DNA of 25,147 nucleotides, from positions 1 to 25,147 of the IMG/VR virus record IMGVR_UViG_3300030491_000021. One strand, written 5' to 3'. The stretch is from a virus. The position numbers and the translations under genes were made by a program. This document shows positions 5,910 through 12,201 of this stretch, in pieces. The notes below the pieces were generated by a model. It saw only the letters and a list, made by a program, of their open reading frames with translations. It had not been told where the DNA came from and did not search any database. The number at the start of each line of letters is the position of its first letter. The stretch's first letter is position 1.

Positions 5910-6251
5910 ATGAAAATCGACGATCTTACAGTAGGAGAGATTAAACAAATTGTTGCAATGTTTGGCAACTCGCCTGTCGCAAAGACTGAAACTGCTTTTG
6001 AGATTGGTAAAATTTATTGTGTTCGTACCGTAACTATGATTGACACCGGAAGACTTATAGCAGTTACCGAACAAGAACTTGTTCTTGAAGAAGCTGCTTG
6101 GATTGCAGATACAGGGCGTTTTGCTGATGCTATTGCAAAAGCTGAATTTGGAGAAGTCGAACCCTTCCCTGGTGATAGACCTTTGATTATAGGCAGAGGT
6201 TCAATAATTGACGCTATAACTATTGAAAAAGCTCCACGGAGTCAAAAATAA
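5910..6251 (+). CDS. Conserved phage hypothetical protein (113 aa)
   Basis: ATG at 5910 follows GAAAGGA. The 113-aa protein has an N-terminal helix, a [14 protein letters not shown] strand pair (about 36-49), an [15 protein letters not shown] helix block (about 61-75) and a C-terminal VEPFPGD...[11 protein letters not shown] end. I recognise the RTVTMIxTGRL and [10 protein letters not shown] blocks from uncharacterised proteins shared by many phages of Proteobacteria, usually close to recombination and replication genes. Function is not known to me. It is the first gene after the consensus promoter. Its TAA overlaps by one base the ATG of an ORF running through the hexamer array (TAATG). Confidence 0.8.
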
Positions 6252-6559
6252 TGAACGCTTGCATGCTAAGAACAGGATTTGATAGGTCGCAGTCGCGGTC
6301 GCAGTCGGGGTCGGGGTCGTGGTTGCGGTCGCAGTCGCAGTCGGGGTCGCGGTCGGGGTCGTGGTTGCGGTCGCAGTCGCAGTCGGGGTCGCGGTCGGGG
6401 TCGTGGTTGCAGTCGGGGTCGGGGTCGTGGTTGCGGTCGCAGTCGCAGTCGCAGTCGGGGTCGCGGTCGGGGTCGTGGTTGCAGTCGGGGTCGGGGTCGT
6501 GGTTGCGGTCGCAGTCGCAGTCGCGGTCGCGGTCGCGGTCGCAGTCGGGGTCGCTATGA
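6251..6559 (+). CDS. Putative Ser/Gln/Arg/Gly repeat protein encoded by the hexamer array
   Basis: A 102-aa frame begins with a TAATG overlap with the preceding gene and ends with an ATGA overlap with the ATPase gene. About the first 11 residues ([11 protein letters not shown]) are unique. All the rest is a low-complexity RS-QS-GS-WL pattern with one residue pair per hexamer, giving SQ, SR, SG and WL dipeptides. Coupling at both ends is what a real gene of this operon would show, and translation through here would carry ribosomes to the ATPase start. Against it, the array is open in every frame, so openness proves nothing, and the start has no ribosome binding site. It may be only a leader ORF. 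No function can be given. Confidence 0.35.
6285..6554 (+). repeat. GC-rich tandem hexamer array, 45 units
   Basis: Forty-five consecutive hexamers of the form RGTYGB (mostly GGTCGC, AGTCGC, AGTCGG, GGTCGG, GGTCGT, GGTTGC) run without interruption for 270 nt and stop one base before the ATPase ATG. Higher-order structure is present. A seven-hexamer (42-nt) block ending in GGTCGT GGTTGC occurs twice in a row (6327-6368, 6369-6410), then again with one extra AGTCGC (6435-6482). A four-hexamer block starting AGTCGG occurs at 6411-6434 and 6483-6506. The sequence is far more GC-rich than its surroundings and has runs of GGGG and GG that could form G-quadruplexes on the coding strand. No stop codon occurs in any of the six frames. 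Confidence 0.97.
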
Positions 6560-7407: not shown

Positions 7408-7650
7408 ATGACAATTGAGCAGCAGGTTAAAGACATTATCGAAGATGTTCTTGTGGTAGAAAGTAATGAAGTAACCAACGAAGCAAATCTTGTTCGTGAC
7501 TTAGGAATGGATTCTCTCGATTGTTTGAAACTTGAAACCGCTCTCGAAGAAGAATTCGATATTAAAATTGAAGAAGATGCTTTTGAAAATATTGATACGG
7601 TTCAAGGCGTTATTGATTACGTTGTTAATGTTTGTGAACCGGACCATTGA
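7408..7650 (+). CDS. acpP: Phage-encoded acyl carrier protein
   Basis: An 80-aa acidic four-helix protein with the phosphopantetheine site LGMDSLD; Ser36 is the expected attachment residue. Helix II (SLDCLKLETALEEEFDIKI) has the acidic face used by fatty-acid-synthase ACPs, and helix III/IV (IDTVQGVIDYV) also matches. Length is that of free-standing bacterial ACPs, so it is probably an intact carrier that host AcpS could charge. ATG at 7408 follows GAAAGGA. No ketosynthase, acyltransferase or desaturase gene is in the window, so it must use host partners if active. It lies between the recombination ATPase and a small basic protein inside the replication operon. Known host ACP partners beyond lipid synthesis include SpoT and MukB; whether any applies is unknown. 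Confidence 0.92.
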   Translation: MTIEQQVKDIIEDVLVVESNEVTNEANLVRDLGMDSLDCLKLETALEEEFDIKIEEDAFENIDTVQGVIDYVVNVCEPDH

Positions 7651-7881: not shown

Positions 7882-7967
7882 GCGAGTGTGGTGAAATTGG
7901 CAAACACATGAGATTTAAGCTCTCACGGCTCTAAGCCTTGCAGGTTCGATGCCTGCCACTCGCACCA
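7882..7967 (+). tRNA. tRNA-Leu, anticodon UAA
   Basis: An 86-nt class II tRNA folds fully. The acceptor stem GCGAGTG (7882-7888) pairs with CACTCGC (7957-7963), followed by discriminator A and encoded CCA. The D arm has GTG/CAC, and the anticodon stem TGAGA/TCTCA encloses loop TTTAAGC with anticodon TAA at 7916-7918. A long variable arm (CGGC...GCC) precedes the T arm, which has stem GCAGG/CCTGC and loop TTCGATG. It would read UUA and UUG, codons favoured by the AT-rich genes here. It is embedded in the operon between two coding genes. Confidence 0.96.
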
Positions 7968-10546: not shown

Positions 10547-12201
10547 GTTTGAAAGTTCATCAAGAGTTACAGCTTAGAGATTATCAAGAAGAAACGATAC
10601 AAGCAATCTTTGATTATTATAATCAAGGAAACAATGGCAACGTAATCGCGGCTTTACCCACAGGTACGGGAAAGAGTCTTGTAATTGCTGGTTTTATTTA
10701 CAAGGTATTTCAGAGATGGCCCTTGCAACGTTTTATTGTTCTTTCTCATGTTGAAAAGATTCTTACCCAAGATTATAAAGCAATTAAATCAATGTGGCCT
10801 GAAGCACCTGTAGGTTTGTTTTCAGCAGGTCTTAATTCGAGAGATATTGCAAACTCTATAATTGTAGGAGGCGTTGCTTCTGTTGTAAATAGCATAGAAC
10901 TATTTGGCTTTAGAGATATAGTTATTGTTGACGAAGTGCATTTGGTTTCACCTGATGAAGACACAATGTATAGAAAGATTATAGCAGGACTTACAGAAAT
11001 AAATCCTAATTTAAAAGTAATTGGAACTTCGGCAACACCTTATCGTTTAGGCCAAGGTTTGCTTACAGATGGAGATTTATTTGACGATATAGTAATTGAT
11101 CTTACAAAAGTAGATTGCTTTAATCGTTTCATAGCCGAAGGTTATCTTTCTCCTTTAATTCCAAAACGTACTAACGTTGAAATAGATGTAAGTAATGTTA
11201 AATTGTTAAAAGGTGACTTTGCTACAAAACAGCTTGACGACGCTACTGAAAAAGTTATATACGAAGCTTTGAAAGAAGCTATCCAGTATGGTTACAATCG
11301 TAATTGCTGGATGGTGTTTTGTTCAGGAATTAAAACAAGTGAGCATGCTGCTGAAATACTTCAAAGTTTTGGAATACCGGCAGCAGCAATACATTCAAAA
11401 CTAACAAAAGCTGAATGTGATAAAAGATTTGCAGCGTTTGAGTGTGGTGAACTTAGGGCTATTTGCGGTAATGAAAAGTTTACAACCGGCTATGACTTTC
11501 CACCTATTGATTTTTGTATAATGCTCAGATCAACAATGTCTCCTGGCAAATGGGTGCAAATGTTGGGAAGACTGACCAGACCTTACGATTTTACTAATCC
11601 TCAGCAATATATTAAAGGTTTTGAGTATATAAAACAAAATGCGTTGGTAATGGACTTTGCAGGCAATACTAAACGAATCGGTCCTATTAACGATCCTATT
11701 ATACCTAGAAAGAAAGGTGAAAAAGTAGGTGACGCTCCTGTTAAAATTTGTGAAGTTTGCGGAGTATACCAACATGCTAGTGCGAGATGGTGTGGAGGTA
11801 AACCTTTCCCCACAAATGAAGGTTGCGGAGCAGAGTTTATATTTAAAACTAAAATAACTAAAACTGCTGGAACTGACGAATTAATAAGAGGCGATTTACA
11901 AGATATACAAACAATAAATGTTAGCAAAGTTATTTATCATAAACACGTTAAAATAGGTTCTGTTCCAACTATAAAAGTATCTTATTATTGTGGGCTACAA
12001 AGATTTACCGAATATATTTGCTTAGAACATAAAGGATTTGCAAGAACTCGTGCAGTAAACTGGTGGAGGCAAAGACACAATAGCGAACCTCCTGTAACTA
12101 TAGATGAAGCTTTACTTATTACAAGTCAATTGCGTTGTCCTAAAAGTATTAAAGTTCGTGTTGATTTAAAGTATCCTGAAATTATGGGGGTAGAGTGGTG
12201 A
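10543..12201 (+). CDS. SF2 DNA helicase with zinc ribbon
   Basis: A 552-aa superfamily 2 helicase of the RecQ/UvrB-like DEXH type. Visible motifs are the Q-like LRDYQEETI (11-19), Walker A PTGTGKS (39-45), Walker B VDEVH (129-133), motif III GTSATPYR (161-168) and motif VI MLGRLTRP (340-347). Next comes a zinc ribbon (Cys403, Cys406, Cys417, Cys428) and a C-terminal basic domain. The layout resembles bacterial RadD (YejH), which acts in double-strand break repair, and many phage replication helicases. The start at 10543 forms an ATGA overlap with the SLOG gene; a TTG at 10537 is less likely. It probably unwinds DNA for PolB or processes recombination intermediates. Confidence 0.9.
   Translation: MSLKVHQELQLRDYQEETIQAIFDYYNQGNNGNVIAALPTGTGKSLVIAGFIYKVFQRWPLQRFIVLSHVEKILTQDYKAIKSMWPEAPVGLFSAGLNSRDIANSIIVGGVASVVNSIELFGFRDIVIVDEVHLVSPDEDTMYRKIIAGLTEINPNLKVIGTSATPYRLGQGLLTDGDLFDDIVIDLTKVDCFNRFIAEGYLSPLIPKRTNVEIDVSNVKLLKGDFATKQLDDATEKVIYEALKEAIQYGYNRNCWMVFCSGIKTSEHAAEILQSFGIPAAAIHSKLTKAECDKRFAAFECGELRAICGNEKFTTGYDFPPIDFCIMLRSTMSPGKWVQMLGRLTRPYDFTNPQQYIKGFEYIKQNALVMDFAGNTKRIGPINDPIIPRKKGEKVGDAPVKICEVCGVYQHASARWCGGKPFPTNEGCGAEFIFKTKITKTAGTDELIRGDLQDIQTINVSKVIYHKHVKIGSVPTIKVSYYCGLQRFTEYICLEHKGFARTRAVNWWRQRHNSEPPVTIDEALLITSQLRCPKSIKVRVDLKYPEIMGVEW

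Follow-up and report, generated by a model that had tools for sequence, protein, structure and literature searches.

A GC-rich hexamer array as the probable coding body of a hypervariable dipeptide-repeat gene in a two-gene phage module

The closest described phage repeat is the (KMGCCG)35 array of Iodobacter phage phiPLPE (positions 46,046–46,255), for which a role as a novel attachment site has been suggested (PMC3391216). By its position, directly after the DUF6948 gene phiPLPE_84, it is the repeat gene of a two-gene module of the type considered here (class B, below), and a coding reading is set here against the attachment-site reading. DUF6948 is a Pfam family of phage proteins (PF22253). 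Class B partner proteins belong to this family, and the partners of class A, to which the analysed locus belongs, match it in predicted Sm-like fold and in position. Class A differs in that its partner misses the Pfam model and its repeat is X-Ser, not X-Gly. In the literature searched, which covered few subscription journals, no mention of DUF6948 or of any repeat partner was found; for DUF6948 and for hexamer repeats of phages the phiPLPE paper was the only one retrieved, and nothing appeared on the gene pair.

The combination of an Sm-like fold and low-complexity sequence rich in Arg or Gly is known from LSM14/Scd6, Edc3 and SmB. In these proteins the low-complexity part is fused, whereas in the phage pair it is encoded by a separate, overlapping, hypervariable viral gene; a function common to both could be proposed by analogy only. 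C9orf72 expansions resemble the phage gene in that a GC-rich hexamer array yields dipeptide repeats, some of them Arg-rich (no relation is implied). They are pathological, have no normal start and are read in several frames, whereas the phage gene has one conserved frame with a normal start and stop. A survey of low-complexity regions that included prokaryote and phage proteomes found Arg and aromatic residues to be heavily under-represented (PMC6821194). Unlike the surveyed regions, the X-Ser and X-Gly repeat proteins are built of Arg or aromatic residues with Ser or Gly.

The window analysed here is a stretch of 25,147 nucleotides (positions 1 to 25,147 of the IMG/VR virus record IMGVR_UViG_3300030491_000021). 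The features of the locus are as follows.

5910–6251, + strand: partner gene, 113-aa class A protein, predicted Sm/Lsm-like fold (AlphaFold2, Foldseek, 79 IMG/VR loci)
6238–6241, + strand: GGAG, Shine-Dalgarno-like site of the repeat gene (sequence; relatives' starts)
6251–6559, + strand: repeat gene, 102-aa X-Ser dipeptide-repeat protein with an 11-residue head (frame, head and position kept in relatives)
6285–6554, + strand: hexamer array, 45 RGTYGB units, forming the body of the repeat gene (pattern search, Tandem Repeats Finder)
6556–6559, + strand: ATGA, overlap of the repeat-gene stop with the ATPase start (sequence)

The 45-unit RGTYGB array reported in the preliminary description was confirmed by a pattern search of the window and by Tandem Repeats Finder: all hexamers at 6285–6554 are perfect and uninterrupted. 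Six unit types only are used (GGTCGC 13, AGTCGC 7, AGTCGG 7, GGTCGG 6, GGTCGT 6, GGTTGC 6), and Tandem Repeats Finder reports an additional higher-order period of about 72 nt. The GC content of the array is 74% versus 39% for the window. Overlapping matches of six units number 40 for RGTYGB and 0 for a reversed control pattern, which is far above chance, and the array is the only one of this pattern in the whole record. A second IMG/VR contig (L128) is identical to the window at 10,836 of 10,837 bases over the compared stretch, array included.

The array ends one base before the ATG (6556) of a Sak4-like ATPase gene, and it had been placed in the leader of that gene, in lieu of a ribosome binding site. 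The array stands, but the leader does not: the array lies wholly inside an overlooked ORF (6251–6559). The ATG of this ORF overlaps the partner stop (TAATG) and its TGA the ATPase ATG (ATGA); GGAG is found 9 nt 5' of its start, within the Arg-Ser codons of the PRSQK end of the partner. Since this ORF has a GGAG of its own, the gap before the ATPase is filled by a gene rather than a leader. The encoded protein consists of the head followed by (Arg/Gly/Trp/Gln)-Ser dipeptides and some Trp-Leu units; the head consensus of repeat proteins is MN[AQ]A[VI]LRxG[FY]D. A Shine-Dalgarno-like match precedes 44 of 72 relatives' repeat-gene starts, as compared with 26% of control positions. The hexamer array is read as the probable coding body (probability about 0.9) of gene 2 in a phage module of two genes, in which a conserved frame is combined with hypervariability.

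The class A set was obtained by searching IMG/VR with the upstream partner protein alone, which gave 79 viral loci. An X-Ser ORF is directly next in 74 of them, in a sample composed of near relatives of the query, the first class A alignment having been built from array-bearing loci. The other five comprise two contig ends with a visible head (L273, L277), a 20-aa version (L249), a locus with no ATG (L281) and L278, the only true case of a partner without a repeat gene. As a control, 7 of 936 ORFs in ATPase-centred loci have a dipeptide-repeat ORF next, and four of the seven are the module itself. When the hexamer pattern alone was searched, 46 of the 119 stretches among the matches listed include the partner gene, nearly always directly 5' of the repeat ORF. 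Other repeats among the RGTYGB matches (ELEL, LRLR, LWLW and others) were set aside as unrelated; most of them lie within larger proteins or on other frames. In bacterial and archaeal MAGs, the repeat reading frame follows the partner gene at seven loci, with a less regular start in L299. One class A pair lies in a contig binned as an archaeon (L297, Bathyarchaeota MAG, genome G004); the ORF directly 3' of it resembles a tyrosine recombinase in the author's reading of the sequence, and at the end of one contig of the same MAG there is also a DUF6948 match.

The genes flanking the class A module vary from phage to phage. A conserved larger operon was considered and rejected: no neighbour family is common to more than a few of the 79 loci, in a count that discounts spurious ORFs over arrays. 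Tandem paralogous X-Ser genes, two or three with a head each, are observed at ten loci (L016, L020, L076, L083, L094, L095, L113, L114, L127, L295), so the whole gene duplicates, as do its hexamers.

The class A partner carries the motif IRTVTMxxTGR...EVEPFP...PRSQK and gave no significant family match against Pfam, PHROG and NCBIfam. The AlphaFold2 model of class A (58 sequences) has a pLDDT of 90 and shows the five-stranded, strongly bent barrel of the Sm fold. In Foldseek comparison with the PDB, Sm/Lsm proteins make up nearly all of its best matches, among them archaeal SmAP (1.3–1.5 Angstrom rmsd) and chains of the LSM14, Edc3 and SmB type; among viral proteins, the closest in fold is a DUF6948 member. 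The class B model, made from 40 other sequences, has a pLDDT of 89 and again matches Sm/Lsm proteins. Foldseek E-values for the Sm-like assignment are modest (about 0.001–0.03), and a PDB sequence search with both partner profiles gave no match. Sm1 and Sm2 sequence motifs are not recognisable in the partner, apart from an RG turn that resembles Sm2 in most close members. Since the E-values are modest and a sequence-level match is absent, an Sm-like fold is assigned to the modelled partner as a confident prediction, and membership of the Sm family is not claimed.

The window protein (5910–6251) scores below the cut-off of Pfam PF22253, which class B members do match. Profile–profile comparison of the two classes gave a probability of 96% with one class B set and 30% with a broader one. 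Class A shares with DUF6948 a similar predicted structure and the gene order before a dipeptide-repeat gene (74/79 and 80/80).

Class B was reached through a weak match in the cultured Vibrio phage IKEMa6-1, in which a DUF6948 protein (E 1.6e-30 with PF22253) is followed by a Ser/Tyr/Asp-Gly repeat ORF. The same arrangement is present in Pectobacterium, Dickeya, Iodobacter and Chlorobiaceae phages. IMG/VR was scanned with a smaller DUF6948 alignment, the first alignment being too diverse; an X-Gly ORF is next in 80 of 80 loci, these being the best 80 of at least 559 found by protein alone and near relatives of the query. The dipeptides are (Ser/Tyr/Asp/Asn)-Gly, versus (Arg/Gly/Trp)-Ser in class A, and the arrays consist of Y-ended codons plus GGN. 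They adjoin genes other than the Sak4-like ATPase. Class B repeats are acidic and aromatic whereas class A repeats are basic, so a single nucleic-acid role for both classes is not obvious. L130/L140, with an ATPase 65% identical to that of the window, has in the same place a different hexamer, NACGGG, within a small Tyr/Asp/Asn-Gly ORF. In 399 genomes of one phylum there were no DUF6948 matches, and the control was also without a match.

Several class B loci depart from the common form. In L381 a long Arg-Val stretch interrupts the X-Gly run, as if the frame had been shifted and later restored. In L305 (MW202478, 1432–1665) the order is reversed, with the X-Gly ORF 5' of the DUF6948-type gene. 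In two human gut phage contigs (L307, 1788–2309; L308, 1803–2423) a short X-Gly run lies within a protein of about 170–200 aa after the DUF6948-type gene. These larger proteins share a C-terminal domain with no strong Pfam match, which is a possible lead to function.

The preliminary description had also regarded the array as a variable-number element able to change length without loss of frame, and both points are borne out by relatives with identical flanks, which differ by whole hexamers. In Pectobacterium phages Ymer, Abuela and Amona the DUF6948 genes are identical, as are the 400 bp downstream; Ymer and Abuela have one common array, while that of Amona is different and 18 nt shorter. Among eight cultured relatives, repeat proteins range from 53 to 89 residues, with ORF lengths that are all multiples of 6 nt and an almost constant head. 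In class A, the partner genes of L159 and L160 are 99.1% identical, but their repeat proteins (56 and 74 aa) differ throughout the sequence. For the pairs L163/L165 and L215/L221, differences lie within the array, and the flanks are 99.7–100% identical. Most loci are metagenome contigs, in which the copy number of a single contig is uncertain. By these comparisons, the array changes much faster than its surroundings, and composition and frame are kept. A contingency (phase-variable) locus was rejected: hexamer steps never switch the frame, and the array lies within a gene, not a promoter.

Serine codons could be followed across relatives. TCG, TCA, TCT or AGC is used, uniform within most loci and different between loci. 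On a tree of 101 upstream proteins, on which the share of TCG is inflated by the hexamer-pattern search, the serine codon type changes at least 17 times, seven of these between TCN and AGC. No single substitution can make the switch between TCN and AGC and keep serine. Translated in the coding frame, each of the four array types yields 46–49% Ser with Gly, Arg and Trp and zero stops; the absence of stops is partly by construction, the constant composition is not. The other five frames shift in composition (e.g., Arg-Gly to Gly-Gln, Gly-Leu or Ala-Gly), and some have many stops. The peptide is therefore taken to be what is selected, because serine codons switch while only the coding frame holds its composition. 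The X codons of class A are NGG in about 88% of cases, and Arg, Gly and Trp follow one another in nearly random order. In the degenerate repeats of L254 and L285, composition is kept better than strict alternation. Comparison of the encoded proteins shows that selection keeps the head, the residue classes and their alternation, and leaves the residue order free.

The association with the Sak4-like ATPase was followed in 80 IMG/VR loci that contain a relative of the window ATPase. A period-6 array lies within 460 nt upstream of the ATPase in eight of them, and one more has an array elsewhere. A small ORF with a related head, directly after a partner ending in PRSQK and in the same frame, has the array as its body in L052, L159, L160, L163 and L165; in L164, a locus cut by the contig end, the same array frame is kept. 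A separate gene of 76–78 aa stands between array and ATPase in L052, L159, L160 and L164. Since the same partner precedes the array and a separate gene intervenes in relatives, the array goes with the upstream gene and not with the ATPase. An acyl carrier protein homologue occurs near the ATPase in five of the 80 loci; in the window, a phage acyl carrier protein (7408–7650, + strand; Pfam PP-binding, E 1.8e-12; phrog_5934) is encoded two genes after the repeat, and a tRNA-Leu with anticodon UAA (7882–7967, + strand) lies within the replication gene cluster.

A variable-number leader controlling translation of the ATPase, as initially proposed, would agree with the ATGA overlap and with the lack of a Shine-Dalgarno match before the ATPase ATG in the window phage. 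For these two reasons, translation of the window ATPase may be coupled to the repeat gene, as a local arrangement of one phage. The variable copy number holds, but control of the ATPase is very improbable, given the intervening gene, the presence of a Sak4-like ATPase within about 3 kb in only 2 of 79 class A module loci and an ATPase 69% identical to that of the window without any array (L129). On the gene order, the recombinase link of the array is incidental. A nucleic-acid element, either a G-quadruplex or another DNA or mRNA structure, was suggested by the GG present in nearly every class A hexamer, and is still less probable. A canonical G-quadruplex motif, defined as four G runs of at least three bases each, is absent from the array, the mean G4Hunter score is 0.97, and shuffling the hexamers gives arrays that fold equally well or better, so the G-quadruplex proposal is not upheld. 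NGG codons also allow one-base interconversion of Arg, Gly and Trp, G tracts are not common to class B arrays, and serine codon switches would be neutral for DNA only by coincidence. An attachment or recombination site, as published for phiPLPE, could draw on the ease with which long repeats recombine; it is very improbable here, as the arrays differ between relatives and even between phages with identical flanks, so that no conserved core DNA is found and the encoded dipeptide class is the conserved part. Contigs do often end at arrays: of 79 class A contigs (L213–L291), 18 stop no more than 300 nt past the partner gene, versus 1 no more than 300 nt ahead of it. Metagenome assemblies thus break at arrays and the module is under-counted. 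An assembly artefact is nevertheless close to dismissed, because many independent contigs, as well as the complete genomes of cultured phages, carry the same gene pair.

In the module as defined by comparison, the first gene codes for a small protein with a predicted Sm/Lsm-like fold, and the second, which overlaps or abuts the first, for an alternating-dipeptide low-complexity protein. Whole hexamers are rapidly gained, lost and exchanged in the array DNA, the frame never being broken. For expression and function, the following is proposed. Translation of the repeat gene could be realized via termination-reinitiation at the overlap, helped by the Shine-Dalgarno-like site in the last codons of the partner. 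The product would be a disordered sticker-and-spacer polymer with Arg/Trp (class A) or Tyr (class B) as stickers and Ser/Gly as spacers, a reading suggested by the alternation of these residues with Ser or Gly in free order; by composition, this alternation and near-random order are those of the RGG/FUS type. The polymer and the Sm-like protein would act jointly, perhaps by gathering RNA or single-stranded nucleic acid into a condensate in the course of infection, RNA or ssDNA being named as the client because of the Sm-like fold of the partner. This joint action, perhaps in a nucleic-acid condensate, is put forward tentatively. It is rather unlikely, though conceivable, that tailed phages hold a split, two-gene counterpart of those Lsm proteins which, with low-complexity sequence, build RNA-protein condensates, with hexamer turnover tuning length and composition or escaping host recognition in an unbroken frame. 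Alternatively, the repeat gene could be translated within the module and play a role other than condensation: a silk- or amyloid-like beta structure, a decoy or inhibitor of host proteins, or a target whose rapid change evades host recognition. This has about an even chance. A small residue at every second position suits beta structures, and rapid turnover with near-random residue order would also be expected from escape. Direct evidence favours none of these roles, and the composition that outlasts alternation in L254 and L285 fits a disordered polymer better than a beta structure. The gene pair is well supported; the proposed function is not.

The gene pair is new, widespread, fast-changing and unstudied, while its parts (DUF6948, the Sm fold and low-complexity proteins) are of known kinds. 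On the coding reading, the GC-rich hexamer arrays of many uncultured phages and of several cultured ones are genes, each forming half of a near-constant pair with a protein of predicted Sm fold, and this offers an alternative to the published 'attachment site' of phiPLPE. Cultured Pectobacterium phages make the function of the pair testable now. If the condensate proposal is true, phages would hold a minimal two-component sticker-and-spacer system with a natural sequence series on an identical background.
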